DNA of 64,000 nt from Nymphaea colorata (Eukaryota; Streptophyta; Magnoliopsida; Nymphaeales; Nymphaeaceae): contig NC_045141.1 in NCBI RefSeq assembly GCF_008831285.2, positions 9,103,353 through 9,167,352 of the forward strand, read 5' to 3'. This document shows, piece by piece, positions 6,850 to 50,059 of the stretch (position 1 is its first letter; each line of letters starts with the position of its first letter). The translations under genes were made by a program, and so were the position numbers. The notes beneath the pieces were generated by a model. The model did not search any database. It had not been told where the DNA came from and worked only from the letters and a program-made list of their open reading frames with translations.

Positions 6850-6854
6850 GACAT

Positions 6855-9800
6855 TGGTAGGACCTAACTCCGGTATAGGCGACAGCCCAGTCCTAGAGTC
6901 GATCCTACACCCAAGATCCTCGTAGAGGGTCCACACGGGTCTAAAGACGCCTAAAGATTGAACCAACACAACTCAAAGAGGAAACTAAGGCTAGACTCAG
7001 ACCAAACACACTCCTTGTAGCCGGATCTTAGGCTCTAGGCCACCGAAAAACTACAGGAATACTGGACAAATGCGGAAGCGATTCAAAACTATGCAAGGAA
7101 AATAGCAAATCTAACTAGTCTAAATGAAGTACCTCCCCAAGGCTTGCTCGGGGTTCATTTGATGAATCTTCTGGAATTCTTTGATGATCTGCTGTAGGTG
7201 CTGTTGAGGATGAATTCCAGACGTCAGGTTGTAGCTGAGAAAATCGGGACACCAAGGTGGAAGGTGCTGCAACGCCAAGAAAGACGCCAAGTTGGAGAAG
7301 ATCGCTGGTAAAGTCTTTGATGTCTTCTCTTCAACTCGGTTGCTGCTGCTGGTTTTGACGGAGCTAATACAAATGCTGCTGCTCCGGGTGTGGCAGTAGG
7401 CTCTAGATATAGCTGAGAGAGAGCCTCTTAGCTCAGCCCACCTGGCTGAGTGCCGTGGTAGCACACGGGATCCGGTTGCTTGGTGATAGCAACCTCAATT
7501 CGCTTGGGCGAGTGGATGAAATGCCCAAGGGTGCACACCAAATGCTGTAGTCGTGGCTGGGGATGGGTGGATTCAGCTTGGTCTTAGCTGAGGAATTACC
7601 TAACTACAGTCAATAGAGGAAAGCTCGGCCGTAGAGCTTGGTAATGATCCTAAGTGTGGCTGGATTAGGGCCGGTTAGGAGCGATAGGGGCTTGGATGGC
7701 TTCGGCTACGGTGTAAGGGAAGATGATCTAAGGGTGTGAGGTCTAGAATGAGGTGGCTTAAGACAAGGGAATGTGGGATGTTGATTAGGAACTGGTGGTT
7801 AGGTTCAAGGATGATTGAACGAGTGGCTTGGGTTTAAATGAGAGAGCTAATGAGGAACTAAGGAGGGTTAGGGATCACGTGAGTGAGTTTGACGTGGGAT
7901 CAAAAGGTGGACTCCTACACTTGAACCTAGGATAATCCTCTAGATCTAAGGCTGAAAATTCAAAGGTGGTAAGTGGGATGTGATGTGGCTGGGATCTAGG
8001 GATGGTTAATGATTGAATCACCTAAACTAAAGAGCAAATCCCTCCAAATGTGGGCACTAGTGGCGCCGGCTCCTCCAATGTAGTCAAATGTGGCGAGGTG
8101 GCGCCTTGTGGAATGATGATTCCAAATGTGGGGATTCTCTTCCAAATCACGTGCAAATCAAGGGTCAGATCTTCTCCTAAGGATCTGGATGAAGGGCTAG
8201 GAGAGACTTAGATGGGTAAGGATGAAGCTCGTACCACTTTTTGAAGCTAGAATGTAGGAGTTTCCCCTTAATTCTCGCCTAGAAAATCTCCTCTCCATGC
8301 GATATCTCCTTGGAGTACTTTTGGACGGACTTACCCTTGGAAATGATGGTCCCACTTCGTGGCAAGGAAGGGCACTTTGGTCCTTGGGTGATGATGACCA
8401 GAATCCCCCAAATGTGGCCGGAATTATGGCAGAGGTCGCCGGAAAACCAGAAGTTCCCGGTGACTTGGTGCTTGCTATCGCCTAGGCCGTTCTTCGCGAA
8501 ACCAATGTGTATCTTCTTCTTTCTTTGCGTGGAATCACCTTATATGGTCCATTCCCATGTCCAAGATGGTCTCACCGTGATTTCTTGAGGATGGGATTCT
8601 GATTTTGCCGGCGAAATTCCAGAGATGGACCGCGGATGAAAACTAGAATCGATCGACTCTTCTTGTGCCGTTTCCTTGAGTGATTTCTCAACTAGGAAAG
8701 CCTCAATGCCTAGGATCTTCTAAGACACGTAAAACTTAGTTTAAATCAAGTTTCAACCGTGGAAAAGAAGGGAATCTCGGCTGTGACTCGAGACTTCTCC
8801 TCTTCTTGTAAGTCAAACCTTGGATCAAACCAAACCAACGTAGTTGCTTAGCTTTCACCTTAGGAATCCAAGAACTAACCTTGTATGAGGAAACCGTGGG
8901 TTTGCTGTCCTTCCTTGGATGAAGACGCAGCCTCCTTGTTCAACTTAGGCCTCTAATATCTCTGATGTAGCAGAGATATTGCACCCAAGACGTGGCTGGG
9001 TAGATGCGAAGATGAAGACGATGATAACTCCTAGGGCCGTGGCTCACCCAAGAGAAAGCCCTCACCTTCTTCTTCAACGAGAATTGATGTAAATGAAAGA
9101 GAGGGGAGATAGTGAGGAGTTGGGAAGGAGAGGAGAGGAAGACGTGAGGGGGAAGGGGAAGTAGAGGGCCAGCATGCTGGTCTTGGGAGAAGAGATTGGA
9201 GGGAACGTGAGAGAGAGAGAGAGAGAGAGAGACACGAGAAGAGAGAGAGAGAAGTGAGGAGAGAGAGAGAGCAAAGAAGCAAATGACCTTGATTTCCCAA
9301 AATTCCATTCATTTACACATGAATCAAAACCTTATATACATGAGTACATAAATCTGGTTCCCATGCATGGAACCAGCCCAAATCCAAATCCAGAACATGC
9401 TAAAGCAAAACGGATCCAAGGCACAACCCGCCTTGGTAAGTTTGAATCCAAAACCGAATTGGCGCAAACTCAAATAAAGCAAATCAAGAAGTGAAAAGCG
9501 GCTAAGTCCTAGCTAGACGCCCCTTGAGCCTTGTGAGCTCAAGGTGGGGACCTCGTCCGGGTTGCCGCCCAAACTTCGGACTTGACACATCCCTTAACCT
9601 CATTGAGCTGAGCTCAATTCAGCCAAGAGACCTCCCTAGACTCGTCCTAGACCGACTCTAGAGACTTGGGTTTCGATACGACTCAAGAATGGACCATGGC
9701 CTATACCAGAGAAGTCCTATGGATCTAGTATCCTAACTCGCGGATTCCCCCAATTGCTGGTCTTCACCTAGTTCATTCATGTCCTAGAGCCGTTGCATAT

Positions 9801-9921
9801 CCTCCCGCACCTCCCACTGCATTTGCTCTAGGCTCGAAGTTTAATTCCATTGAGCCGTGATCTCTCACTGTGGCCGTGCCTTTGGCCTTGGTTAGGCCTA
9901 CTCGGACTAAGGCTCGTACCA
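6855..9921 (-). repeat. 3' LTR of the FHA-ORF element (left copy)
   Basis: 3,067 bp, nearly identical to the right copy. I noticed about ten substitutions by eye (for example near 7,387, 7,394, 7,666, 7,698, 7,928, 8,329, 9,309, 9,496 and 9,919) plus a 6-bp difference in a GA run near 9,212. That is roughly 0.3 per cent, so the insertion is young. Open frames inside it (such as 7,120-7,464 on the minus strand) recur in the right copy because the LTR is duplicated, not because they are genes. Confidence 0.93.
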
Positions 9922-9938
9922 GATCCACCCTCCTTAAA
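9922..9938 (-). other. Polypurine tract of the FHA-ORF element
   Basis: On the minus strand the bases just before the 3' LTR read AAGGAGGGTGGATC, a purine-rich primer for plus-strand DNA synthesis, directly followed by TGGTACGAGCC, the LTR start. It confirms the orientation given by the PBS. Confidence 0.8.
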
Positions 9939-9959
9939 TCGAGCTTGTCCCCAAGCTCA

Positions 9960-10289
9960 TTATGAACTTGTTTCTTGGTGGCTCTGACGCACGCAGTCAT
10001 CTTTCACCTTGTGTTTCCTCCCTGGTCCATAGTCTCTGGGTAACACCTTCACTGAGTTCCTAAGATGGAGGAAACATCTTCTTGGGCCTCTTGAATAAAC
10101 CTTGAACATGGCCCTTTTAACTCTGAGTTTAGCTATGGTCAATGTGTCTGGACCATAGTCTCGAGGTAACTGTCCAATTCGCTTCATTGGTTGCCCAAGC
10201 AACCTTTCATCATTCTGGATCTCATTCGTTGACATGGCTTTACCACGGTCATGTGGTTGCCACTTTCTACCACCATGTTGTAGTGGTTT
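9960..10289 (-). pseudogene. In-frame extension of the FHA ORF beyond a stop, with C-terminal repeat units
   Basis: The TAA at 10,292-10,290 is followed in the same frame by 109 more sense codons. They contain a second copy of the ORF's C-terminal unit: 'LQAGGRLWQAHDRGKAL...IGQLPRDYSP' before the stop and 'LQHGGRKWQPHDRGKAM...IGQLPRDYGP' after it, then a third shorter 'VLPRDYGPG'. So the protein probably once ended near 9,960, and the stop may be a late mutation. Alternatively the units after the stop are untranslated repeats. A different frame (10,000-9,773) crosses the PPT into the LTR and is not counted. Confidence 0.6.
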
Positions 10290-12590
10290 TTACACTTGTT
10301 TAGGACTATAATCCCTTGGGAGTTGCCCTATAGCCCTCTTTTGCAGCCCTTGTAGCTGCTCAATAGTGCCCTCCTGATGTGCGAGGGCCTTCCCTCTGTC
10401 GTGGGCTTGCCATAGGCGCCCACCTGCTTGTAGTACTTGTTGGTTGATGATGTAGTCTTTCTGTTTACAATTACTCTGTACTGCCCATTGCACCTCAGTT
10501 GCGCTCATGTCGTTGGAGTCAATTGATGTTGGTGACTCCGACTTGTAATCCTCACATGAACTCGAGGGGTTCCACATCTCTTCATTGCAATTTGGTGACT
10601 CTGAGTACTGGAATGCTCTCCATCTTTTTGGGTAGAGTTTTTCATTCTTATCTCTGTGAATCACCTCTTCATTTTGTTGTTGTCCACCCTCCTTAGGATG
10701 TATCATCTGTTGTTGTAATAGAGAATGGGTGGATAAAGATCTTTCCTTGTTCTCATACGATTCAATGTGCCCACTCTTAGCCATTGGGCCTTCACGATTC
10801 ACTCGTGGATCTTCTTGATGAGCCTTATATTTGTTGAATGATGGTCTTGGCTCCAAAGTAATAGTGTGATCATCATCAGAACTGCACAAGAAATCATCTT
10901 CAAACTCAGAGAAGAATCCTGCTAATTCCTCTTGCACTTCCTCTTGCCACTTTTGGATGCAACGAAGCTTAGCATGTTGATCACTTTCACTCATCTCAAT
11001 AGGGGCTAACCACGTCTCCTCGCTCTGTGGATGATTCTGACAAGAGGGTATTCCTTCAAGTTGCTCCACCCGTGGTCCGATACCTTGGTCTTGGTGTGAG
11101 CACGTCATGTGGAAAGCTAACTCTTGGGTTGCTTGTAGTTGTAACTCTTCCACAATCTGTGAGCAGTCAGTTGAATCCGCTCCACCCTCCTTATGATCTG
11201 CCTTACCTTCTATTGTGGAAGGATATGATGGATGATCCTCGCTTCGCTGGCTGGACTCTTCATCTCCTTCTATTTCCATGGGATCATTAGAGTCCATGCT
11301 GCTTGCCTTTTCTACATCATTCCTTTGATCTTCAAGGTTAAGATCTTCTGGCATTTGACAACGGATTAGCTCCACCTTGTCTTCTGGCTGTATGATCTCA
11401 AGAGGTTGAAGCTCGCTTGATTCTTCCACTTCCATCATGTTGGGTGAAGCTAGAGCTGTACACACTAAAGATTCTTCTTTGTACGTATCTAATGCTTGGT
11501 TGGGACTAGACGCGTGCATTGAGTTTGTAGAGATTGAAGCTCTTTCTTCATGTGATCCTAAAGAATCTTCACTTGGAAGTGTCTCTTCAATAGATTCGCA
11601 CTCTTGACACTTGCTTTCTATTTCAGCCAATAACTCATTGGTAGTCCATGTCTTCAATGATTCGCCATCACTTGAGTTGTTGGATGGCTCCTCAACTGTA
11701 GCTTGATCATGAACACCCTTGCCCTTGAGGCTATTGTTCGGCACTTCACATTTGATTGTCTCTACCGCTTGGTGCATTTCATCTCTCTTGTTCCTGCTTA
11801 CTTCGTCCCTTTTCTTAGGTTGATAATTGGTCTGAGGGACCTCGGATTTTTTAGTAAGGCCTTTAGTTGAGTAGGCCTTGCGGTAGGCTTTAGTGTTGTC
11901 AGTTTTCTTTGGAGGTGGTTGTGACACCGCACTCATGATGCCTTGGTTCTTGCTTCCGTTGCCTTTGCTCATGTGCTCCGTGCGAGGTGGCGGAGTAGCT
12001 GGTCCGAGTAGCTCTTTGCTCTTCATGTTGGTCGGAACCATGCCCTTGGACGTGTTGCTCCTTAACTCCACGTGAGGCTTCTCTTGTTTCACGTTGTCCA
12101 ATATCTCATCCATCTTTGAGAGCGCTTGTCGTATCATCTCTTCAATGTTAGGAGATGACTTTCCTGGGTTACTATTTCCAGGTTTCCCTACTTGTTTGAC
12201 GGGTTTGGGTGCTGGGATTTCTTCCAACACAAACTTATGACTCATGTCTCCTATTTGTATCACTTCTCCTGGATAAACTTGTAAAAGCTCACCCAGGTTG
12301 ACTACTCTTCCTGCAACCCTAAGTCGACCCACTAAGGTCCTATTGGTGATCCTAATGTTACAGGTCCCCTTGTCCACTTCAATCACACAATGATAACCCA
12401 TTACACTGACATCTCGTAGGATGATGTCGCATCTCGGGTTTTGCCCAATCAAGAAACTGATGAACTGTGGGCCGTAACTCCAATCTTCTCTGTGAACTAA
12501 AATCTTCTCTTCCACGAGTTTTCCGTAAGAATAGGTGCTAAACACTAAATCAACATCTAAACTTCTGGGATACGCACCTTCTTCCATCAT
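10290..12590 (-). CDS. 766-aa protein with N-terminal FHA-like domain, encoded inside an LTR element
   Basis: The ATG at 12,590 opens the only long frame in the element's interior. Residues about 15-125 follow the FHA beta-sandwich pattern: 'FLIGQNPRCDIIL', 'VSVMGYHCVIEV', then 'VYPGEVIQIGD' and 'HKFVLEE'. FHA domains normally bind phosphothreonine. Here the usual Gly-Arg is Gly-Gln and the Ser/Arg of the SRRH stretch are Met/Gly, with only His kept, so phosphopeptide binding is doubtful. Residues about 130-300 are basic and Lys/Pro-rich. About 300-640 are strongly acidic and Ser/Glu-rich with no fold I recognise, including a Phe/Asp/Glu patch 'FFSEFEDDF'. The C-terminus has the start of a repeat ending IGQLPRDYSP. 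No zinc knuckle, protease or polymerase motif is present. Composition suggests a nuclear, scaffold-like or gag-substitute role; that is inference. FHA assignment is by motif reading only. Confidence 0.75.
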   Translation of the reverse strand: MMEEGAYPRSLDVDLVFSTYSYGKLVEEKILVHREDWSYGPQFISFLIGQNPRCDIILRDVSVMGYHCVIEVDKGTCNIRITNRTLVGRLRVAGRVVNLGELLQVYPGEVIQIGDMSHKFVLEEIPAPKPVKQVGKPGNSNPGKSSPNIEEMIRQALSKMDEILDNVKQEKPHVELRSNTSKGMVPTNMKSKELLGPATPPPRTEHMSKGNGSKNQGIMSAVSQPPPKKTDNTKAYRKAYSTKGLTKKSEVPQTNYQPKKRDEVSRNKRDEMHQAVETIKCEVPNNSLKGKGVHDQATVEEPSNNSSDGESLKTWTTNELLAEIESKCQECESIEETLPSEDSLGSHEERASISTNSMHASSPNQALDTYKEESLVCTALASPNMMEVEESSELQPLEIIQPEDKVELIRCQMPEDLNLEDQRNDVEKASSMDSNDPMEIEGDEESSQRSEDHPSYPSTIEGKADHKEGGADSTDCSQIVEELQLQATQELAFHMTCSHQDQGIGPRVEQLEGIPSCQNHPQSEETWLAPIEMSESDQHAKLRCIQKWQEEVQEELAGFFSEFEDDFLCSSDDDHTITLEPRPSFNKYKAHQEDPRVNREGPMAKSGHIESYENKERSLSTHSLLQQQMIHPKEGGQQQNEEVIHRDKNEKLYPKRWRAFQYSESPNCNEEMWNPSSSCEDYKSESPTSIDSNDMSATEVQWAVQSNCKQKDYIINQQVLQAGGRLWQAHDRGKALAHQEGTIEQLQGLQKRAIGQLPRDYSPKQV

Positions 12591-13321
12591 TCTTGCCTTC
12601 TCTTAAATCAAAACAAATGCTTAAAAACTTTCTAAGCTATCTATTTCAAACACCAAACTGAACTACTAAAAGCTGAAAACCACGACACTTGTAAATTCTG
12701 TAACTCTCTAACTCGATGTCCAAAAATCACGAAACTTGGTAGCAAAATACTAGACACGATAAGGAATCCAACGCCACCAAGATCAAGCTCTAACTCTGCT
12801 CCAGGAAAGCACTCGTTCTTCTGAAAGTCACGCCTGGGCTTGCTCTTCAACCGCGCAGGACTCCCCCAGTGATAGGGGTCCACTCAAAAAATCATAACTT
12901 TTCACCCGTAACTCAAAAAAATCTGAAATTTGGACTGGAGATTCCTGAGACGTAGGCGCTTCCAACGAGCCTAACCTTGACCAATTCCGACGCCGGATCT
13001 GACAGCGCCGGCCACTGGAATCCGGCGTAGTTTCTGGTTTTTCAGAAACTGAAAAAAATGCAGGCTGAAGAGGATGAGTTTCTGCTATGCTACCATCAAA
13101 CCAAACTAACACTGCTGGAATCTGAAAACTGAGTGCGGCGGCCTCTCAAGATGGCTCTGATACCAAACTGATAGGTTTGGTATCAGCCGGATAAGTTTGG
13201 AACTCTCCTTTCCAACTTTCACCCGCTTTTACCAAAATCGATCTTTCTTGCACTTATGAGCAACATAAACTCTAGAATTTGAATTCACAAGATGTAAACA
13301 AGCAACGGAATCCTCCACGTT
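12591..13321 (-). other. Leader between PBS and the FHA ORF
   Basis: About 730 nt lie between the primer-binding site and the ORF start. The tract holds two short minus-strand open frames (13,112-12,828, 94 codons; 12,883-12,641, 80 codons) with no recognised domain. They would act as upstream ORFs if the full leader is retained. An intron removing them is possible, but I did not identify convincing splice sites. Confidence 0.5.
13157..13186. repeat. 12-bp perfect inverted repeat containing PBS sequence
   Basis: CTGATACCAAAC (13,157-13,168) and GTTTGGTATCAG (13,175-13,186) are exact reverse complements separated by 6 nt. The left arm with its preceding bases (13,153-13,165) duplicates the PBS core found 170 bp away. 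In RNA this would form a stable hairpin in the leader. Confidence 0.8.
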
Positions 13322-13334
13322 GGCTCTGATACCA
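13322..13334 (-). other. Primer-binding site (initiator-Met tRNA type)
   Basis: On the minus strand this reads TGGTATCAGAGCC, complementary to the 3' end of plant initiator-Met tRNA. It starts 3 nt inside the LTR boundary, which is within the normal range. It fixes the element's orientation as minus. Confidence 0.85.
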
Positions 13335-13337
13335 AAT

Positions 13338-16300
13338 TGGTAGGACCTAACTCCGGTATAGGCGACAGCCCAGTCCTAGAGTCGATCCTACACCCAAGAT
13401 CCTCGTAGAGGGTCCACACGGGTCTAAAGACGCCTAAAGATTGAACCAACACAACTCAAAGAGGAAACTAAGGCTAGACTCAGACCAAACACACTCCTTG
13501 TAGCCGGATCTTAGGCTCTAGGCCACCGAAAAACTACAGGAATACTGGACAAATGCGGAAGCGATTCAAAACTATGCAAGGAAAATAGCAAATCTAACTA
13601 GTCTAAATGAAGTACCTCCCCAAGGCTTGCTCGGGGTTCATTTGATGAATCTTCTGGAATTCTTTGATGATCTGCTGTAGGTGCTGTTGAGGATGAATTC
13701 CAGACGTCAGGTTGTAGCTGAGAAAATCGGGACACCAAGGTGGAAGGTGCTGCAACGCCAAGAAAGACGCCAAGTTGGAGAAGATCGCTGGTAAAGTCTT
13801 TGATGTCTTCTCTTCAACTCGGTTGCTGCTGCTGGTTTTGACGGAGCTAATACAAATGCTGCTGCTTCGGGTGTAGCAGTAGGCTCTAGATATAGCTGAG
13901 AGAGAGCCTCTTAGCTCAGCCCACCTGGCTGAGTGCCGTGGTAGCACACGGGATCCGGTTGCTTGGTGATAGCAACCTCAATTCGCTTGGGCGAGTGGAT
14001 GAAATGCCCAAGGGTGCACACCAAATGCTGTAGTCGTGGCTGGGGATGGGTGGATTCAGCTTGGTCTTAGCTGAGGAATTACCTAACTACAGTCAATAGA
14101 GGAAAGCTCGGCCGTAGAGCTTGGTAATGATCCTAAGTGTGGCTGGCTTAGGGCCGGTTAGGAGCGATAGGGGCTTGGACGGCTTCGGCTACGGTGTAAG
14201 GGAAGATGATCTAAGGGTGTGAGGTCTAGAATGAGGTGGCTTAAGACAAGGGAATGTGGGATGTTGATTAGGAACTGGTGGTTAGGTTCAAGGATGATTG
14301 AACGAGTGGCTTGGGTTTAAATGAGAGAGCTAATGAGGAACTAAGGAGGGTTAGGGATCACGTGAGTGAGTTTGACGTGGGATCAAAAGGTGGACTCCTA
14401 CACTTGAACGTAGGATAATCCTCTAGATCTAAGGCTGAAAATTCAAAGGTGGTAAGTGGGATGTGATGTGGCTGGGATCTAGGGATGGTTAATGATTGAA
14501 TCACCTAAACTAAAGAGCAAATCCCTCCAAATGTGGGCACTAGTGGCGCCGGCTCCTCCAATGTAGTCAAATGTGGCGAGGTGGCGCCTTGTGGAATGAT
14601 GATTCCAAATGTGGGGATTCTCTTCCAAATCACGTGCAAATCAAGGGTCAGATCTTCTCCTAAGGATCTGGATGAAGGGCTAGGAGAGACTTAGATGGGT
14701 AAGGATGAAGCTCGTACCACTTTTTGAAGCTAGAATGTAGGAGTTTCCCCTTAATTCTCGCCTAGAAAATCTCCTCTCCATGCGATATCTCCTTGGAGTA
14801 CTTTTGGACGAACTTACCCTTGGAAATGATGGTCCCACTTCGTGGCAAGGAAGGGCACTTTGGTCCTTGGGTGATGATGACCAGAATCCCCCAAATGTGG
14901 CCGGAATTATGGCAGAGGTCGCCGGAAAACCAGAAGTTCCCGGTGACTTGGTGCTTGCTATCGCCTAGGCCGTTCTTCGCGAAACCAATGTGTATCTTCT
15001 TCTTTCTTTGCGTGGAATCACCTTATATGGTCCATTCCCATGTCCAAGATGGTCTCACCGTGATTTCTTGAGGATGGGATTCTGATTTTGCCGGCGAAAT
15101 TCCAGAGATGGACCGCGGATGAAAACTAGAATCGATCGACTCTTCTTGTGCCGTTTCCTTGAGTGATTTCTCAACTAGGAAAGCCTCAATGCCTAGGATC
15201 TTCTAAGACACGTAAAACTTAGTTTAAATCAAGTTTCAACCGTGGAAAAGAAGGGAATCTCGGCTGTGACTCGAGACTTCTCCTCTTCTTGTAAGTCAAA
15301 CCTTGGATCAAACCAAACCAACGTAGTTGCTTAGCTTTCACCTTAGGAATCCAAGAACTAACCTTGTATGAGGAAACCGTGGGTTTGCTGTCCTTCCTTG
15401 GATGAAGACGCAGCCTCCTTGTTCAACTTAGGCCTCTAATATCTCTGATGTAGCAGAGATATTGCACCCAAGACGTGGCTGGGTAGATGCGAAGATGAAG
15501 ACGATGATAACTCCTAGGGCCGTGGCTCACCCAAGAGAAAGCCCTCACCTTCTTCTTCAACGAGAATTGATGTAAATGAAAGAGAGGGGAGATAGTGAGG
15601 AGTTGGGAAGGAGAGGAGAGGAAGACGTGAGGGGGAAGGGGAAGTAGAGGGCCAGCATGCTGGTCTTGGGAGAAGAGATTGGAGGGAACGTGAGAGAGAG
15701 AGAGAGAGACACGAGAAGAGAGGGAGAGAAGTGAGGAGAGAGAGAGAGCAAAGAAGCAAATGACCTTGATTTCCCAAAATTCCATCCATTTACACATGAA
15801 TCAAAACCTTATATACATGAGTACATAAATCTGGTTCCCATGCATGGAACCAGCCCAAATCCAAATCCAGAACATGCTAAAGCAAAACGGATCCAAGGCA
15901 CAACCCGCCTTGGTAAGTTTGAATCCAAAACCGAATTGGCGCAAACTCAAATAAAGCAAATCAAGAAGTGAAAAGTGGCTAAGTCCTAGCTAGACGCCCC
16001 TTGAGCCTTGTGAGCTCAAGGTGGGGACCTCGTCCGGGTTGCCGCCCAAACTTCGGACTTGACACATCCCTTAACCTCATTGAGCTGAGCTCAATTCAGC
16101 CAAGAGACCTCCCTAGACTCGTCCTAGACCGACTCTAGAGACTTGGGTTTCGATACGACTCAAGAATGGACCATGGCCTATACCAGAGAAGTCCTATGGA
16201 TCTAGTATCCTAACTCGCGGATTCCCCCAATTGCTGGTCTTCACCTAGTTCATTCATGTCCTAGAGCCGTTGCATATCCTCCCGCACCTCCCACTGCATT

Positions 16301-16398
16301 TGCTCTAGGCTCGAAGTTTAATTCCATTGAGCCGTGATCTCTCACTGTGGCCGTGCCTTTGGCCTTGGTTAGGCCTACTCGGACTAAGGCTCGTATCA
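13338..16398 (-). repeat. 5' LTR of the FHA-ORF element (right copy)
   Basis: 3,061 bp direct repeat of 6,855-9,921. In the minus-strand sense it begins at 16,398 and ends at 13,338, immediately before the primer-binding site. It would drive the element's transcript. It contains a plausible TATA box (15,807-15,819), giving a U3 of about 0.6 kb and an unusually long R-U5 of about 2.4 kb. Confidence 0.93.
15807..15819 (-). promoter_or_regulatory. Candidate TATA box of the FHA-ORF element 5' LTR
   Basis: Read on the minus strand the sequence is CATGTATATAAGG, a good plant TATA box. The same sequence is at 9,330-9,342 in the other LTR. A start site 25-35 bp downstream would fall near 15,780, just before the CT-rich tract (15,685-15,760, minus sense), which would then lie in the 5' untranslated leader. 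No experimental start site is known. Confidence 0.5.
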
Positions 16399-16403
16399 GA
16401 CAT

Positions 16404-36107: not shown

Positions 36108-38119
36108 TCTTCAAAACATAATTACTTTTGTTAACACTTCATGCATTGGATCACCATCATTCTTTACCCAATTACCAAAACAAACCAAAGCTTCAACTGT
36201 TTTTGGCATCAATGAACTATGACTATCATTAACAATTCGACCTCTTGTACTAAAAGCTTTTTCTGAAGCAACAGAAGTTATTGGAATTGACAATAGATCA
36301 CGTGCCATTTGTGAAAGAATTCAATACTTAGATTCCTTATCCTTCTGTCATTGCAAAATATTGAAAGAATCTTCATCACCATTATCCTCATGCTTATTCA
36401 ATCCGTCCTCTAAATATGTGTCTATCTCGGATTTGGTGACCTAAAAAGCAACATTTTCAGCTTTACCCAAGAACTTAAAAATAGTTGTCTTCCACCACGT
36501 GGTGTGTCTCGACTCTCTCGACCTTGAATACTAGAGGAATTAGTTGATGTGGTAGAAATATTGGCATCCACTTCATTTCTTTGAATGTAAGTTTCATAAA
36601 CATTTTGTAAAGATTGTTTTATCATTTGCATTTGTTCTTCCCTTTCTTCTCTTGACTCGTAAATTATTGAAAAGATAAATTCTGATAATGTGAGTTTCAC
36701 ACGTGGATCTAATATGGATGCAATAATCATTAACAAGTTACAGGATTTCCAATATTTATCAAATTTCTCCTTCATTTTCACTGCCATTGCCTTCATAAAT
36801 CCACCTTCATTTTCAACATTTTCCTGTAATATTTCTTGAACTCTCTAAATTTCAAGAAAATAGAAGTTTGTTGTTGCATAAGATGACCCAAAAAATAATG
36901 TGGACACATCATATAAAACTTGAAGAAAATCACATATCACTGCTATTTTTTCCTAATCCTTAGAACCATACCAAGCCTGGATCTTCCATGCTATATTTTG
37001 CAAAAGCATCTTTATATGCAAGAGCTATTTCCAACATAAAATATGTTGAATTCCATCGAGTTGGTACATCTAACACTAACTTCTTTGTCGTTGAAATTTC
37101 CAACTCTCTAGCTGCAGCTGCAAAACCATGGACTCTTGAAGGTGAAACTTTGATATATTTTACTGCATCTCTAATACGAATGATTTCATCTTTAATGACA
37201 CTCAACCCATCTTGTACCATCAGATTCAAAATATGTGCACAACATCGCACAAGAAAAAATTTACCTCCATAATACAAGTTGATGCCGTTTTTTTTCATGT
37301 TCTCTTTTAATTTTCTGACAAAAACATCATTTGATGAAGCATTGTCAATTGTAATAGATATTTCTTTTTAATCTCCCACTCTACAAGATGCTTAGCAATT
37401 ACATTTGCTAAAACTAACCCAGTATGAAGAGGCTCAACTTCGATAAAGTTGATGATATGTTGTTGCATATTCCACTCTTTATCAATGAAATGTGCTGTTA
37501 ATGCCATATATCCAAGTTGTTGGTTTGATGTCCACATATCTGTAGTCAAAGCAATCTTATCAACACCCTTCAAGACAAGAAGCAATTTCTTCTTTTCATC
37601 TTCATATAATTTCATGACATCTCTCTTAATTGTCGTTCTTGGAACTGGCACCCAATTAGGAAAAGCAAGCCTAAGAAGGAACCTAAACCAACAATTATCC
37701 ACTATGAAAAAAGCACGTTCTCTGGTTGCTACTAGTTTTGCAACTATCTTTCTCATTGATTGAGAATCGATGTTGGAACCCATTTCCATAAGCTTCTTCG
37801 TGACATCTGAAGTATTTCCAGATTTAAAACTTAAAATCATTTGCTTTTTATTAGCAAAACATGTCAAACATTTGTGTCTTCTGATTGATGATGTAGATCC
37901 TCCTGCACTTATCAAAAACATTATATTGCAGTACTTACATTTTCCTTTTTTGATACCATTTATAATGACCTCGTCAAAATCATTTCATATTTTAGAAGTA
38001 TTTGCTCTTGATCTTTTTGCACCACTTACACGTACTTCAGGAGCATCTATTGAAACTCTTTCATTTTCAATGTCTTACGAATCCATAGGAGTAGGAATGT
38101 ACTCCAATTGGGGCATCAT
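36108..38119 (-). pseudogene. Decayed hAT transposase (BED zinc finger, RNase H-like, C-terminal dimerisation domain)
   Basis: Read from 38,119 leftwards. A BED-type finger has 'CKYCN' and 'SIRRHKCLTC' (about 37,955-37,865), with its expected Trp mutated to a stop. An RNase H-like region follows ('ALTTDMWTSNQQLGYMALTAHFID' near 37,545-37,475; 'RCCAHILNLMVQDGL' near 37,240; 'VPTRWNSTYFMLE' near 37,060). Then come 'ILDPRVKL' (36,710) and the hAT dimerisation block 'LLSIPITSVASEKAFSTRGRIVND' (about 36,300-36,230). These are Ac/DAYSLEEPER-type landmarks in correct order. Damage includes two stops before 37,960, a frame change in an A-run near 37,365, another near 36,960 with further stops, and one between 36,420 and 36,310. 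It cannot encode active enzyme, though the family may have active members elsewhere. Confidence 0.88.
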
Positions 38120-44722: not shown

Positions 44723-44952
44723 TGTTGCGTAATAGGGAAGGGGAGAACGAGAGAAAGAAAGAGAGAGAGAGAGAGGCGGTAAAACTTCTTACTCAATCTC
44801 GTACACTAATCTCTACTAAAAGAGAGATTAGGGCACGGCTGTAACAGTTACAAACGGAGGACACATAAAATATTGAAATGACATAAGAGAACCCTAACTT
44901 TTAAATATTCAACTAACTACCACATTTAAAGCCAAACTTTCTACTTTCAACA
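44723..44952 (-). repeat. 3' LTR of the young copia element
   Basis: 230 bp, identical to the 5' LTR. The purine tract TTGAGGGGGAG (minus sense, 44,953-44,963) sits directly inside it, as expected for plus-strand priming. Confidence 0.95.
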
Positions 44953-44959
44953 CTCCCCC

Positions 44960-45343
44960 TCAAGCTGGAGCATAGATGTCAACCATGCTCAGCTTGTCAC
45001 AACATCTAGAGAAATCACCAATCGGAAGAGCTTTCGTAAACATATCTGCGGCTTGGTCTTCAGAAGCTACATGAACTGTAGACACTACACCTTCTTTTAT
45101 AAGATCACGAATGTAATGACAATCCACCTCAATGTGCTTAGTTCTTTCATGAAATACTGGATTGTTTGCAATATAAGTAGCAGCCTTGTTATCACAATAC
45201 ATTCTCATAGGAAGAGGAACATGAATACTCATATTCGTTAGCATAGATTTAATCCACGTCATCTCAGTAGCTGTTTGAGCCATTGCTCTATATTCAGATT
45301 CTGCACTTGATCTAGAGACCACATTTTGTTTCTTGCTCTCCAT
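44960..45343 (-). CDS. Copia Pol C-terminal piece: RNase H
   Basis: This piece carries 'SSAESEYRAMAQTATEMTWIK' (catalytic Glu), 'YCDNKAATYIANNPVFHERTKHIEVDCHYIRD' (catalytic Asp and the conserved His region) and the closing 'QAADMFTKALP' typical of copia Pol. It ends a few bases before the PPT. It has no start of its own and would be made only as part of the polyprotein. Confidence 0.88.
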   Translation of the reverse strand: MESKKQNVVSRSSAESEYRAMAQTATEMTWIKSMLTNMSIHVPLPMRMYCDNKAATYIANNPVFHERTKHIEVDCHYIRDLIKEGVVSTVHVASEDQAADMFTKALPIGDFSRCCDKLSMVDIYAPA

Positions 45344-45687
45344 GATATGAGATTACCCCCAACAAAGACATAGAAGCCAGTTGTTGACCTTCTATCATCA
45401 ACAGACCCTGCATAGTCAGCATCACTGTAAGCAACAACATCTAGATATTCACCTTTCTTAAAGAAGAGACCTCTGCCTGGGGAAGATTTTAGATATTTCA
45501 ACACCATCAACGCCGCATCCCAGTGGACTTTTCTAGGTTTTTCCATAAACTGACTTAATTTTCCAACAGCAAAGCTAATATCTGGTCTTGTTACAGTAAC
45601 ATAAAGCAGTTTTCCAATAAGAGACCTGTAAGATCGGGAATCTACTAGTTCTGATTGATCATCATGAAGATGAATACGAGGATTCAT
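45259..45687 (-). CDS. Copia Pol continuation: RT connection and RNase H start
   Basis: This piece is in a second frame after the break near 45,690. It contains 'SYRSLIGKLLYVTVTRPDISFAVGKLSQFM', the usual RT thumb/connection, then the RNase H opening 'YSDADYAGSVDDRRSTTG' with its first catalytic Asp. After 'LISWRARNK' the frame is wrong. The expected 'SAESEYRAMA' is in the frame of the next piece, so a further single-base change lies near 45,335-45,342. Confidence 0.85.
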   Translation of the reverse strand: MNPRIHLHDDQSELVDSRSYRSLIGKLLYVTVTRPDISFAVGKLSQFMEKPRKVHWDAALMVLKYLKSSPGRGLFFKKGEYLDVVAYSDADYAGSVDDRRSTTGFYVFVGGNLISWRARNKMWSLDQVQNLNIEQWLKQLLR

Positions 45688-48476
45688 CGGGAGTTGGTCC
45701 CTAGCATCCCTGTGTCTTGCAGAAGATCAAGGACATACTTCCTTTGAGACAATGCTACACCTTCTTTGTTCTCCACAACTTCAATTCCAAGAAAATATCT
45801 CAAGTGACCAAGATCCTTCGTGACAAAATGTTTTTGAAGGAAGGCCTTAGTAGCAGATATTTCTTGACCACAATCACCTGTCAGAATAATGTCATCAACA
45901 TATACTATCATGACAACAATACCTGTAGAGGTCTTCTTGATGAATAGAGAATGATCCAAAGGAGATCGTTCAAATCCACACTGTGAAACTACCTCTGATA
46001 ATTTGTGGAACCATGCCCTGGGACTTTGTTTAAGTCCATAGATAGCCTTCTTCAACCGACACACTTTACTACACTCCCCCTGTTTCTCGAACCCTGGAGG
46101 TTGTTGCATATACACGGTCTCCTCAAGATCACCATACAAAAAGGCATTCTTCACATCAAGCTGATACATAGGCCAATCCGAGTGAACCGCAACTGAAATA
46201 ATAAGACGAATAGTGCCCAATCTTGCCACTGGAGAGAACGTCTCAAAGAAGTCAACCCCGTATGTCTGAGTGTAACCTTTAGCCACTAATCGAGCCTTGT
46301 ATCGCTCTAATGATCCATCTGAATGATATTTGACTGTAAATACCCATTTGGCGCCAACAATGTCACAGTCGTCAGGTGGATCGACCAACTCCCAGGTACC
46401 ACGCTGTACAAGGGCATCCATCTCATCTTGCATAGCTGTTCGCCATTTACAATCGAGTAAGGCCTGTTGATGACTAGTTGGGACTGTATGAACTGCCATA
46501 GCCTTAAGAAACTGTTGTAAGTTATCATCAAGATGGGTAGTGGAAACAAAGTGAGAGATAGGATGCATGGTACACTGTCTCTTGCCTTTGCGCAGGGCTA
46601 TAGGCAAGTCATTTGAAGGAACAACATCAGGTATACTTACTTCAGTGGAGCTCACATCTTGAGAAGAGTCTGATGGTCGACCATGAGAGGGGTCCTGTCG
46701 CCGAGTGTAGACCAATGGAGGATCCTGAAACCTATTCATAGTCAACGTAGGAGATGGAAAGGATTGCAACGGGATAGGTGGGATAGGTAAAGGGATAGGA
46801 CATGGCATTTCAGATGATGTAGAGGTAAGAGGATTAAAGTAAGACCGCTCCTCGAAAAAAGTGACATCCGCACTGATATACTCTTTGTGAGTTACCGGAT
46901 CAAAGCACTTGTACCCTTTTTGGTTTCGGGGGTAGCCAATGAACACACACTTAATGGCTTGAGCAGCAAGTTTATCACGTTTAGGCCCAAGAATATGAAC
47001 AAAACAGGTACAACCAAAAACTTTTGGTGCAACGGAAAACAAGCTTCGATTGGGATAAACAAGTTTAATAGGTACTTTGTTGTCAATGGAGGATGATGGC
47101 AAACGATTGGTCAGGTAACAAGACATGAGAATGGCATCACCCCATAAGTATGCAGGTACGTGATTATGAAGCATTAGGGTTCGAGCAACAGTTAGAAGTT
47201 GCCGATGTTTTCGTTCTGCAATTCCATTCTGTTGTGAGGTATGAGGACATGTAAATTGGGGAGAGATACCATTTTCAGCATAAAAGGTCATTAAGATAGA
47301 TGATTTGAACTCAAGAGCATTATCAGTGTGAATACACTTAACCACAGAACTAAATTGAGTCTTTATTTCAATAATCAAGTTTTTGAGAATACAAATTACT
47401 TCAGACCTTTCCTTCAACAGGAATACCCAACTGACTCGAGAATAATCATCAACAACGACAAGAAAGTACCTAAACCTATCTCGGCTAGCAACCCTGCTAG
47501 GCCCCCACACATCAACATGAAGAAGATCAAATAACCCTTGACTTGAAGGACTAAGACTCGAAGGAAAACTACTACGTGTGTGCTTGCCAAGTTGACATGC
47601 CTCACACTGGAAAGACTCTGGACCTGAAAGTTTAGGCAGGAGAGAACGAAGCTTGGGTGCTGAAGGGTGACCAAGCCGGAGATGCCACTGGAAGATTGTA
47701 GACTCTGATGTAGACGCGGTAGCTGCAAGACCCATTGGAGCCGACAGGATGTAGACTCCCCTTTTCTCATAGCCGCCACCAATCGTCTTCCCAGTTTGCA
47801 AGTCCTGAAATGAGCATGAACCAGGGTCAAAAATAACACGACAGTGTAAATCAGTAGTCAACTGTTTAACCGAGAGTAAATGAGATGGAAAGTCAGGAGC
47901 ATATAAAACATGTGAAATAGTCATAGACTGAGAAAGTTTCACATTTCCATAGCCCAATACGGGTGACAGTCTACCATCTGCAATTTTGACATGACGTGGC
48001 TGAGGAAATTTATGTAGAGTAGTAAACCACCCAGGGCTACTGCAGAAATGTCTCGATGCTCCTGAATCAATAATCCACAAAGTATCTGAGTCAGATGTGG
48101 AAGGACCCGCTGAGATGGCTCGATCGGTCAACGCTGTAGAAGCTGAAGCCTGTGAGGCTTTGTGCGTTAAAAATTGCTCATACTCAACTCTGTCAATGCT
48201 GACTGTAACTGTCTCTGGCGCTATACTAGACGAAGCGTCCTCCACTGTAGGAGTGGTCTGTGCAGAACCCATAGATAAGTGAGTAGGACTCTTGCCCTGA
48301 TTGATGACTATATTTCTTCCTTGCGACAAAGAGGATGGGCGACCATGTTTATCCCAACAGCGATCCTCTAAGTGTCCAATCTTTCCACAATAGGTACATT
48401 GGAACCTCCCACGGCCCCCAGTTCCACGACCTATACCTCTTCCTTTGGCACTATAGGTGGAGCTATGACCGCAACC
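45684..48476 (-). CDS. Copia zinc knuckle and Pol: protease, integrase, reverse transcriptase
   Basis: The open frame extends upstream of the first listed start: a Gly/Arg linker and the zinc knuckle 'CTYCGKIGHLEDRC' (about 48,400-48,355) are in frame with pol. Then come the aspartic protease 'WIIDSGASRHF' (near 48,070), the GAG-pre-integrase 'WHLRLGHPSAPKL', and the integrase DDE core with 'LLHVDVWGP', 'HTDNALEF' and 'QNGIAERKH'. The RT starts near 'WELVDPPDDCDIVGAKWVF' with 'YQLDVKNAFLYGDL' and the catalytic 'YVDDIILTGD' (near 45,900). All catalytic residues seen are intact. The frame ends early at 45,684 after 'LLQDTGML' through a frame change near 45,690-45,705, separating it from the RNase H part. 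Confidence 0.92.
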   Translation of the reverse strand, partial: GCGHSSTYSAKGRGIGRGTGGRGRFQCTYCGKIGHLEDRCWDKHGRPSSLSQGRNIVINQGKSPTHLSMGSAQTTPTVEDASSSIAPETVTVSIDRVEYEQFLTHKASQASASTALTDRAISAGPSTSDSDTLWIIDSGASRHFCSSPGWFTTLHKFPQPRHVKIADGRLSPVLGYGNVKLSQSMTISHVLYAPDFPSHLLSVKQLTTDLHCRVIFDPGSCSFQDLQTGKTIGGGYEKRGVYILSAPMGLAATASTSESTIFQWHLRLGHPSAPKLRSLLPKLSGPESFQCEACQLGKHTRSSFPSSLSPSSQGLFDLLHVDVWGPSRVASRDRFRYFLVVVDDYSRVSWVFLLKERSEVICILKNLIIEIKTQFSSVVKCIHTDNALEFKSSILMTFYAENGISPQFTCPHTSQQNGIAERKHRQLLTVARTLMLHNHVPAYLWGDAILMSCYLTNRLPSSSIDNKVPIKLVYPNRSLFSVAPKVFGCTCFVHILGPKRDKLAAQAIKCVFIGYPRNQKGYKCFDPVTHKEYISADVTFFEERSYFNPLTSTSSEMPCPIPLPIPPIPLQSFPSPTLTMNRFQDPPLVYTRRQDPSHGRPSDSSQDVSSTEVSIPDVVPSNDLPIALRKGKRQCTMHPISHFVSTTHLDDNLQQFLKAMAVHTVPTSHQQALLDCKWRTAMQDEMDALVQRGTWELVDPPDDCDIVGAKWVFTVKYHSDGSLERYKARLVAKGYTQTYGVDFFETFSPVARLGTIRLIISVAVHSDWPMYQLDVKNAFLYGDLEETVYMQQPPGFEKQGECSKVCRLKKAIYGLKQSPRAWFHKLSEVVSQCGFERSPLDHSLFIKKTSTGIVVMIVYVDDIILTGDCGQEISATKAFLQKHFVTKDLGHLRYFLGIEVVENKEGVALSQRKYVLDLLQDTGMLGTNSR

Positions 48477-49159
48477 ACCCCCACAACAAGAGCAGAAGCA
48501 GAGGTAGGCGTCACACCAGTTGGTTGAGACAGGCTAACAGCAAGACGGCTAAGTCTGTTGTATGCATCAGAGAGCTCAGGAATTTCACTTCCAGTGAGCA
48601 TCTGATCCTTAGCAGAAGCATACTCAGGGGAGAGACCAGCAAGAAACTTCGCAACCATAGTAGGTTCAAAATGTGACTTATAACACGATTTGCAAGGAGG
48701 ACGCAAAAATTTCAGACGTTCATAAGTAGCTTTCACTGTTGCAAAGTATTGAGATAAATCTTGATTTCCCTGTCGGAGGTTGTGCAACTCTTCTTCAATT
48801 TGAAGGATTTTACTTACATTCTTATCTTGAGAATATGTCTGTCTAAGGAAGTCCCACATCTCCTTCGCAGTAGTATAGTAAGTAATAGTAGAAGCAATTT
48901 GGGGTTGGACACTATTCATAATCCAAGACATAACCATGCTGTCGTCCTCTTCCCAGGTTATGTACTTGCCTGTCTTGTTAAGAGGTTCATCCTCTTCAAT
49001 AATGTGTCTCTTTCGATGTCCTTTTACTGACAACATAAAGGATCTAGACCACAACTCATAGTTGTGTCCATCTAATTTAACTGTAGATCCATAGGAAAAG
49101 GGATTTCCAACTCCTTTATGATCATTACCACCCTCCAATCTTTGGTTCTCAGCCATCAT
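48431..49159 (-). CDS. Copia Gag (242 codons before a frame break)
   Basis: The ATG at 49,159 opens a frame with the copia-type gag domain: 'VKLDGHNYELWSRSFMLSV' (residues about 29-47), 'MVMSWIMNSVQPQIAS', 'AKEMWDFLRQTYSQ' and 'LSQYFATVKATYERLKFL'. Gag forms the virus-like particle that packages element RNA. The frame ends at 48,431 in a spurious C-terminus. The CCHC zinc knuckle that should belong to Gag lies in the next frame. The change of frame is most simply placed in a run of five G (minus sense, 48,478-48,482): one base more or fewer there aligns the Gly-rich linker with the zinc knuckle. In most plant copia elements gag and pol share one frame. Confidence 0.85.
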   Translation of the reverse strand: MMAENQRLEGGNDHKGVGNPFSYGSTVKLDGHNYELWSRSFMLSVKGHRKRHIIEEDEPLNKTGKYITWEEDDSMVMSWIMNSVQPQIASTITYYTTAKEMWDFLRQTYSQDKNVSKILQIEEELHNLRQGNQDLSQYFATVKATYERLKFLRPPCKSCYKSHFEPTMVAKFLAGLSPEYASAKDQMLTGSEIPELSDAYNRLSRLAVSLSQPTGVTPTSASALVVGVVAVIAPPIVPKEEV

Positions 49160-49816
49160 AAATCACAGCAAGAATGGGACGACCAAAATGAAATATATAT
49201 ATATGCAGCAATTTCACGCAGCCTTCAGGAACAGAACAAAGAACAGTCACGCAGCCTCTTTCAACAACCCCCAAAACAGCAAGGAAAAGGGGGAAAACAG
49301 ACAACTTGCTGGAAAGAAAATTTGCTGAAACTACACAGGAAACGACAGGGAATAAACTTGCTGGAAAACAGAACTTATAAATGAAGTCTGCCGCTGCTTC
49401 TAACATTCCACATCTTGCGTAGATAAATTCTGCATCTATTTTGCTTCACCAGAATTTCTGATCATCCCTCAAACCACAACTACAGACAGCATATCAACGT
49501 TTCTTCAACACTTAAACGTTCAACACTCTAAACAGTATCCATGACCAGCACATAAAAAAATATCCAAATACTCCACGTGAGGATCTGATTACGCCTTCCA
49601 CATAGGCGAGATCAGGTCCTCCTCTACACAGCAGAGAATATGAGATAAGTTAGAGATTACTCCAGCAACAGCTTGAGGTGTTCTCGTAAGTCTGAGATAT
49701 TCTCGTATGCAAGATGGGCAAGAAACGATCACGCCAGAACACAGAGTCGATGACGCCAGCAGCTTGAGTCGATCACGCCTGCAGCTTGAGCCGATCACGC
49801 CAGCAGCTTGAGTCGT

Positions 49817-49829
49817 GGCTCTGATACCA
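49817..49829 (-). other. Primer-binding site of the young copia element
   Basis: Minus-strand TGGTATCAGAGCC starts directly at the LTR edge and is complementary to the initiator-Met tRNA 3' end. Confidence 0.92.
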
Positions 49830-50059
49830 TGTTGCGTAATAGGGAAGGGGAGAACGAGAGAAAGAAAGAGAGAGAGAGAGAGGCGGTAAAACTTCTTACT
49901 CAATCTCGTACACTAATCTCTACTAAAAGAGAGATTAGGGCACGGCTGTAACAGTTACAAACGGAGGACACATAAAATATTGAAATGACATAAGAGAACC
50001 CTAACTTTTAAATATTCAACTAACTACCACATTTAAAGCCAAACTTTCTACTTTCAACA
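49830..50059 (-). repeat. 5' LTR of the young copia element
   Basis: 230 bp, TGTTG...CAACA ends, identical to 44,723-44,952. It contains a GA-rich tract and the inverted pair ACTAATCTCT / AGAGATTAG. Confidence 0.95.

Follow-up and report, generated by a model that had tools for sequence, protein, structure and literature searches.

The window analysed here, i.e., positions 9,103,353 to 9,167,352 of NC_045141.1 from Nymphaea colorata (64,000 nt), contains a complete long terminal repeat (LTR) retroelement on the minus strand (window positions 6855–16398) whose sole long open reading frame (ORF) occupies the position of gag-pol and codes for a protein with an N-terminal FHA domain. Comparisons within the genome make it likely that the element belongs to an old group of FHA-encoding chromovirus satellites that are mobilized by matched gag-pol helpers and whose FHA-fold protein is probably active in trans. 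The window element is best read as a young copy of a satellite-like (i.e., non- or semi-autonomous) Ty3/gypsy element of a chromovirus-like branch. Besides close copies, the genome contains at least about 42 further loci with relatives of the ORF, the aligned stretches of which are 27–39% identical; the captured host gene that an earlier note on this DNA had considered is thus no one-off recent acquisition but belongs to an old lineage of several families.

The FHA reading frame

The ORF of the window copy (10290–12590, minus strand) comprises 766 codons and is far longer than expected by chance, with 770 open codons, whereas the longest frame in 1000 dinucleotide-shuffled versions of the element interior averaged 127 codons and never exceeded 255. 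The FHA domain (residues 47–114; 12249–12452, minus strand) matched Pfam PF00498 with 25.6 bits against a cut-off of 20.7 (E 1.7e-5), and the corresponding domain of L009, one of the close copies, matched with 29.9 bits. Among family members, all 10 domain sequences scanned matched FHA with E values no higher than 1 (best 1.7e-8), as did 8 of 9 full proteins with E values of up to 0.1. A search of PDB with a 10-sequence profile gave Ki-67 (7.8e-5), 2n84 (1.1e-4) and 3gqs (1.3e-3) as top matches, followed by Rad53, Mek1, CHFR, kanadaptin, OdhI and NIPP1 at E 0.009–0.1, with unrelated chains mixed in from E 0.36 among 33 matches up to E 10. The FHA-type pattern that the earlier note had seen at the N-terminus is therefore above the Pfam cut-off, while the single 766-codon protein described there is real as a long frame but is that of an early-stopped copy. 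Past the stop at codon 767, the frame continues for 109 codons that include a repeated LPRDYGP motif (9963–10289, minus strand), and in L009 and L011 this continuation and the FHA part form a single ORF. Since both of these copies stay open for 876 codons, the window ORF is a prematurely stopped form.

No gag, protease, reverse transcriptase (RT), RNase H or integrase was matched in the window element by Pfam searches of the ORF and of 10 further frames among the 89 frames of at least 45 codons in the element; these 10 frames gave no Pfam match above cut-off, and no zinc knuckle was present among the Pfam matches of the FHA proteins. A diverged gag was not supported when the ORF family was compared by hhalign with the gag of the helpers (probability 0.1 percent, E 0.8). 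The claims that the element lacks a zinc knuckle, protease, RT and integrase, and that its ORF is not a recognizable gag, agree with these results. An interior entirely without gag-pol, as also claimed, requires one correction. A short remnant of the 3' end of helper pol (GAGCTTGGGGACAAGCTC...AAGGAGGGTGGA; 9922–9958, minus strand) lies next to the polypurine tract (PPT), and one of its frames reads, by eye, AWGQARFKEGG, matching helper pol ...RAWGQARSKEGG. The position of the FHA ORF as sole long ORF in place of gag-pol would be in keeping with an FHA protein that replaces Gag as a new capsid or nucleocapsid and forms a novel particle, and a precedent is offered by wheat RLG_Sabrina variants, which, in the available text of PMC9744471, exchange gag-pro for other proteins, two of them capsid-like. 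Given the lack of gag similarity and of a zinc knuckle among Pfam matches, an AlphaFold model that consists mostly of linker at low confidence, and a helper lineage with a complete gag domain, such a replacement is improbable.

Relatives were not found in NCBIfam, in the viral contigs searched, or in a database of 5.8 billion proteins searched with the ORF (E 0.001), residues 1–135 (E 10) and a 9-sequence alignment (E 0.1), although this last result says little about other plants.

In FHA domains, an Arg, a Ser and an Asn are the residues that contact phosphothreonine. As in other PF00498 proteins (Ki-67, Rad53, CHFR and OdhI), the core glycines are kept in the elements, and the histidine is kept in 8 of 10 aligned sequences. 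In contrast with those proteins, the contact residues are replaced. Thus, in an alignment with Rad53 and Ki-67 read by eye, Gln or Ser stands in for the Arg that follows the first glycine in the 10 sequences, Met, Gln, Lys or Glu for the Ser three positions ahead of the histidine, and the second-loop Asn is absent from all 10. The FHA pattern therefore appears to be retained without the classic phosphothreonine pocket, and these replacements make a phosphothreonine-binding role in signalling unlikely. What the earlier note had called a conserved non-retroviral, signalling-type domain is of FHA type and conserved, but the phosphothreonine-signalling part of that description does not stand.

A host FHA gene is the most likely source of the domain, which would have been acquired long ago. 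A genome search with PF00498 gave at least 69 matches, all above cut-off and several inside these elements (150 of 164 candidates scored). Twenty FHA loci were fetched as possible host exons, and 11 of these reached at least 57 bits with the element profile; we count them as further relatives, whether inside or outside LTR elements. Among the other nine, the best fit to the element profile was L043 (47.8 bits). Neither L043 (within L063) nor L044 (within L062) need be a host gene; both may be old relatives. L063 (C11:10.20 Mb) and L062 (C1:12.11 Mb) were noted as relatives with a more canonical FHA motif and as possible intermediates to the host source; the surroundings of L063 are decayed, and its fuller motif fits loss of the pocket after capture. 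The source may be linked to PARALLEL SPINDLE 1-type genes.

Copies, diverged families and selection

When the 407.8-Mb assembly (783 contigs) was probed with 546 bp of the LTR, 40 matches were obtained, and a genome search with the ORF gave at least 74 matches, with at least nine loci that are close copies (59 of 293 first-look candidates scored; locus counts, made by hand, are lower bounds). The interiors of eight close copies were 96.5–99.6% identical, and an open frame of 876 codons from the ATG was present in two of these (L009 and L011) and broken in the other six. Six full-length copies were dated, with LTR divergences (K) of 0.0007–0.026, and each was flanked by a 5-bp target site duplication (TSD), exact in four cases and with one mismatch in two. 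The low LTR divergences and the TSDs indicate that the family moved repeatedly, also recently, and the presence of young LTRs on copies with a broken ORF (the window copy and L010) agrees with supply of functions in trans. The description of the element as recently mobile and non-autonomous is borne out by the several full-length copies, their young LTRs and the lack of encoded enzymes. The host-like domain is all that would speak for an artefact, or for an ordinary host gene that happens to lie between LTRs; this reading is hardly conceivable with six full-length copies at different places, and was ruled out by these multiple insertions with TSDs. Two FHA copies 7191 bp apart (G000:C3:30758556 and 30765747) were also noted, possibly a tandem element with a common LTR.

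In one copy, L016, the LTR is short (approximately 0.6 kb) and built from both ends of the long LTR. Mosaics also occur. L012 and the window copy are 89% identical in the LTR and 98% identical in the interior. Among diverged members, the FHA end of L031 is nearly that of L029 while the remainder is different (synonymous divergence, dS, of 0.08 for the FHA part compared with 0.9 overall). These mosaics of LTR and ORF fit co-packaging and template switching.

The ORF stretch was translated for 15 loci (2 close copies and 13 diverged loci, chosen partly for long frames), and a stop-free frame of at least 750 codons was found in 10 of these, three being ended by the boundary of the stretch; the other five had shorter frames (407–631 codons), and the frame of L030 is also broken. 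Translations were used because open-frame lengths from the genome search can run through stops (e.g., C329, listed with 875 codons but translated with 439, L038). Seven diverged full-length members were aligned and are 25–35% identical to the window family. Their proteins, of about 870–900 residues, have the same layout, in which an FHA domain at the N-terminus is followed by a long linker of low complexity and, towards the C-terminus, by the conserved motifs EKLYPERWRAYQFPDSPNCSREL, IGQLPRDYGP and VYSRGPRRCFLxLRNSLxVLPRDYGP, or by close variants of these. Both L029 and L030 have the look of complete elements, with long LTRs of their own (about 3.9 and 3.0 kb, by reading), a primer binding site (PBS) and a PPT. 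For comparison of LTR ends, four FHA families were distinguished, FHA-A (the window family), FHA-B (L028), FHA-C and FHA-D.

Selection on the frame was judged from omega, the ratio of nonsynonymous to synonymous change, against neutral simulations that incorporated the transition bias of the LTRs. These gave a mean of 0.70 with 2.5% points of 0.46–0.54, so that naive readings of omega mislead. Omega was 0.37 for L033/L034 (simulation minimum 0.39), 0.42 for L031/L041 (minimum of 300 simulations 0.47) and 0.46 for L029/L037 (2.5% point 0.47). Values for L029/L031 and L036/L031 were 0.47 and 0.46, and deep pairs gave 0.26–0.35 with synonymous sites near saturation. Neutral simulations stayed stop-free in 3 of 300 cases at 100 changes and in none of 300 at either 130 or 300 changes, evidence that weighs most for the far-diverged loci because loci were chosen partly for long frames. 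Within the window family omega was not informative, although the ORFs of L013 and L016 diverge by 1.9–3.0%, compared with 4.3–5.5% for their leaders; the order is reversed in L012 (ORF 1.7%, leader 0.7%).

These results bear on whether the FHA gene is a passively transduced host passenger without a role, the LTRs and cis sites alone being of importance. Plant LTR elements are known to capture host genes (the available part of PMC3726574), which provides a precedent, broken copies appear to transpose, as seen from the young LTRs of the window copy and L010, and omega overlaps the neutral range in the close copies, most of which are broken, and in four diverged close pairs. Passive capture is nevertheless an improbable account, since relatives at 25–35% identity retain frames of approximately 870–900 codons and the same layout, three pairs fall below the neutral range and the deep pairs are lower still (with the reservation about dS given above), and stop-free frames were rarely or never simulated at 100 and 130 changes, albeit for loci partly picked for long frames. 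The expectation that the ORF is kept open across copies thus holds for several diverged pairs, with omega below neutral, but not for the close copies, which are largely broken and whose omega does not clearly depart from neutral.

In a second alternative, the ORF region would be conserved above all for cis signals at the level of RNA or DNA (i.e., internal PPTs and packaging sites), the protein being secondary. Two internal exact copies of the PPT core (AAGGAGGGTGGA) occur in the window ORF, one at 10683–10694 (minus strand) that codes for PKEGG and one at 11181–11192 (minus strand) that codes for HKEGG. The first place is filled in L029, L031, L032, L036, L037, L038, L039 and L041 and the second in L028, L029, L033, L034, L035, L036, L037, L039 and L040, with the exceptions that FHA-B lacks the first, the second is altered in L031 and L041 and lost in L016, and L030 has neither. 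The gag-pol region of the helpers L014, L015 and L017 likewise contains the core a single time, with at most one mismatch. The codons concerned, AAG GAG GGT, have a joint expectation of approximately 5% from codon usage, and their recurrence across families hints that the internal copies are candidate central polypurine tracts. Such cores (TAAGGAGGGTGG) at the same places in families only about 25–35% identical, with synonymous sites conserved, speak for conservation as cis signals, as does codon identity above expectation at the C-terminus (A/B 21 compared with 12.1; B/D 25 compared with 12.2) and in FHA residues 61–120 (A/B 15 compared with 8.6). However, the FHA region codes for a domain that was recognized in all 10 members, codon identity in residues 1–60 is at chance (A/B 6 the same, 6.1 expected), and RNA signals leave stop-free frames of 870–900 codons unexplained. 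Conservation mainly for cis signals is accordingly unlikely, if slightly less so than the other alternatives considered.

Probable gag-pol helpers, matched ends and element structure

The genome contains gag-pol elements whose LTR end, PBS and PPT match those of the window element, and these are candidates for the autonomous partner that the earlier note had proposed to look for. The last 80–90 bp of the LTR are common to the window element and to L014, L015 and L017; identity with the window LTR end is 88–92% for L014 and L015 and 72% over 215 bp for L017, with further LTR blocks at 65–72%, and the first 77 nt of the interior are 78% identical to the window in L015 and L017. The L015 frame has 1375 open codons, one stop and then 283 more, and matched gag, aspartic protease, RT, RNase H and the integrase zinc-binding and C-terminal domains above cut-off, with the integrase core just under (32.1 bits, cut-off 32.6). 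A chromodomain-like tail scored 22.3 bits with Pfam Chromo (E 1.3e-4, cut-off 25.1). The helpers are thus assigned, by domain content, to a Ty3/gypsy gag-pol lineage that is chromovirus-like, with a tail score below the Chromo cut-off. Helper RT was found at no fewer than 104 loci at E < 1e-100 (scored of 4342 candidates), in bands of approximately 80, 77 and 75% identity, and open frames of at least 1000 codons were listed at a minimum of about 93 RT loci (hand count).

When 130 nt of LTR end and PBS were compared with seven helper ends, FHA-A (window and L016) was 85–93% identical to L014, L015 and L017, and FHA-B (L028) was 93% identical to gag-pol sublineage L071 and 71% identical to a further sublineage, L077, whereas either family was only 48–57% identical to the helpers of the other. 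FHA-B also has a variant PPT in common with L072, which by position is the other end of the L071 element, with an RT locus between. The PBS-proximal LTR end of L016 (G000:C9:9696000-9700470) was noted to be closer to helper L017 (93%) than to the window copy (90%). Diverged FHA ORFs continue in frame into the last pol residues (RAWGQAHFKEGG compared with RAWGQARSKEGG), and hhalign of the FHA family with the helper pol tail gave a probability of 89.6 (E 1.9e-6). Because the ORFs run into the pol tail and the window element retains pol DNA, the FHA gene has replaced gag-pol in a helper-like backbone. The window family can be classed as a derivative of the lineage of L014, L015 and L017, with which it has the LTR end, the surroundings of the PBS, the PPT and the pol tail in common. 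Outside the window, at about 28.4–30.9 Mb of G000:C3 (contig end), gag-pol copies of the helper type were noted to be crowded together with diverged FHA relatives, possibly as a heterochromatic or centromeric block, and the same was seen on many small contigs.

In the proposed mechanism, the helper would supply Gag, RT and integrase in trans and would recognize the ends that it has in common with the satellite. Satellite RNA would be packaged in helper particles, both RNAs being co-packaged, primed at the common PBS and copied by helper RT, and the resulting DNA would be integrated by helper integrase via the common ends. The FHA protein, translated from satellite RNA, would act in trans in the particle or in a ribonucleoprotein, with an FHA fold that may serve as a protein-docking surface no longer dependent on phosphothreonine. 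With regard to the suggestion that the ORF is either a captured host gene or a novel particle or host-targeting factor, capture long ago is the most likely origin, and for the protein we infer only a role in trans. A wider and more tentative proposal, which we consider possible but hold with less than even confidence, is that FHA satellites and gag-pol helpers form a stable two-part system that has long diversified as matched pairs, in which the satellite would contribute a phospho-independent FHA factor (for the particle, chromatin targeting or evasion of defence) and both partners would use repeated internal PPTs for second-strand synthesis.

Several observations weigh against satellites with matched helpers and an active FHA-fold protein. 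With a single sequence as query, PDB gave no significant match (best Ki-67, E 0.17). As to the 11-strand beta-sandwich expected of an FHA domain, two single-sequence AlphaFold models were of low confidence and uninformative (pLDDT 42.8, mostly strands, and 38.5), and Foldseek of the low-confidence domain model gave nothing at E <= 0.001. Omega for L028/L033 (0.47) and L029/L036 (0.51) was inside the neutral 95% range, that for L036/L037 (0.66) and L028/L034 (0.62) was near the neutral mean, and that of the window family (0.56–1.02), with six of eight interiors broken, was not clearly below 0.70. None of the three helper copies matched to the window family has an uninterrupted frame, L015 containing a stop and L014 and L017 being broken. 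A clearly matched helper is available for only two FHA families, FHA-A and FHA-B, as the best of the seven helper ends compared reached no more than 59% for FHA-C and 51% for FHA-D, and dependence on helpers is a property that we infer from the shared ends.

The earlier note had described a structurally complete element, with an exact TSD, LTRs of approximately 3.06 kb, a PBS and a PPT, and all of these were found again. The TSD GACAT lies at 6850–6854 and, as an exact 5-bp match, at 16399–16403. In the sense of the element, the 3' LTR (6855–9921, minus strand) is 3067 bp and the 5' LTR (13338–16398, minus strand) 3061 bp in length, both with TG...CA ends, and the pair is 99.48% identical (10 substitutions, of which 8 are transitions and 2 transversions, plus a 6-base gap within a GA repeat; Kimura two-parameter divergence, K2P = 0.0033). 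The interior of 3416 bp begins with a leader of 747 nt between the 5' LTR and the ORF (12591–13337, minus strand) and ends with the PPT AAGGAGGGTGGATC (9922–9935, minus strand), which abuts the 3' LTR. The PBS TGGTATCAGAGC (13323–13334, minus strand), which we take to be of initiator-Met tRNA type, is 3 nt interior to the 5' LTR; its pattern, at one mismatch or fewer, occurs 6 times in the window compared with 0.23 expected from shuffling and is common to other retroelements. A second PBS-like site (13154–13165, minus strand), 169 nt interior to the first and preceded by a remnant LTR-like end, CCTATCA, was found in the four family copies compared (window, L012, L013 and L016).

Elsewhere in the window, a separate copia-like element was noted at 44723–50059, with 230-bp LTRs that are 100% identical, a PBS at 49818 and a coding assignment made by ORF reading, and two ORFs at 36422–37921 have the appearance of a putative hAT-type transposase.

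Comparison with known systems

Large retrotransposon derivatives (LARDs) are large, LTR-flanked elements without gag-pol that are mobilized in trans and have a non-coding interior. The window element resembles them in size, LTR flanks and lack of gag-pol but differs in that its interior codes, and it differs from TR-GAG and other gag-only elements in that their Gag domain was not found in it. In plants, it is common for non-autonomous LTR elements to code for proteins whose function is unexplained. The present case combines a recognizable domain, widely diverged members and matched helpers in one genome, so that whether satellites pay their way becomes testable, and it would also be an instance in which a retroelement has co-opted a domain of host type and retained it over deep divergence. 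No report of FHA-encoding LTR satellites was found in the open-access literature searched.

By analogy with wheat, the kind of element is nonetheless one already known, namely semi-autonomous gypsy elements with unusual coding segments. Retand elements, as presented in the accessible portion of PMC11963269, likewise belong to the gypsy elements of plants and carry coding regions beyond the usual ones, and some are non-autonomous, but their extra ORFs are antisense and lie between pol and the 3' LTR, whereas the FHA ORF is in sense orientation and replaces gag-pol. RLG_Quinta of Einkorn wheat is, according to the part of PMC11302176 available, a non-autonomous gypsy element whose LTR ends and PBS match those of its partner, RLG_Cereba, and which carries an extra domain of unknown function (DUF1); it differs in retaining Gag, to which no similarity was found in the window element. 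Also close in kind are the non-autonomous (NA) variants of RLG_Sabrina and RLG_WHAM in wheat, with autonomous RLG_Wilma (PMC9744471). In the text available from that source, these are gypsy elements without RT and integrase in which the gag region is exchanged for unrelated coding segments, and the autonomous partner was proposed, as here, from related populations and sequence. The RLG_Sabrina segments code for short proteins, four lacking homologues among other wheat proteins and two capsid-like, with no FHA domain seen in the same text, whereas the present elements keep one protein of approximately 870–900 residues across families down to 25% identity.

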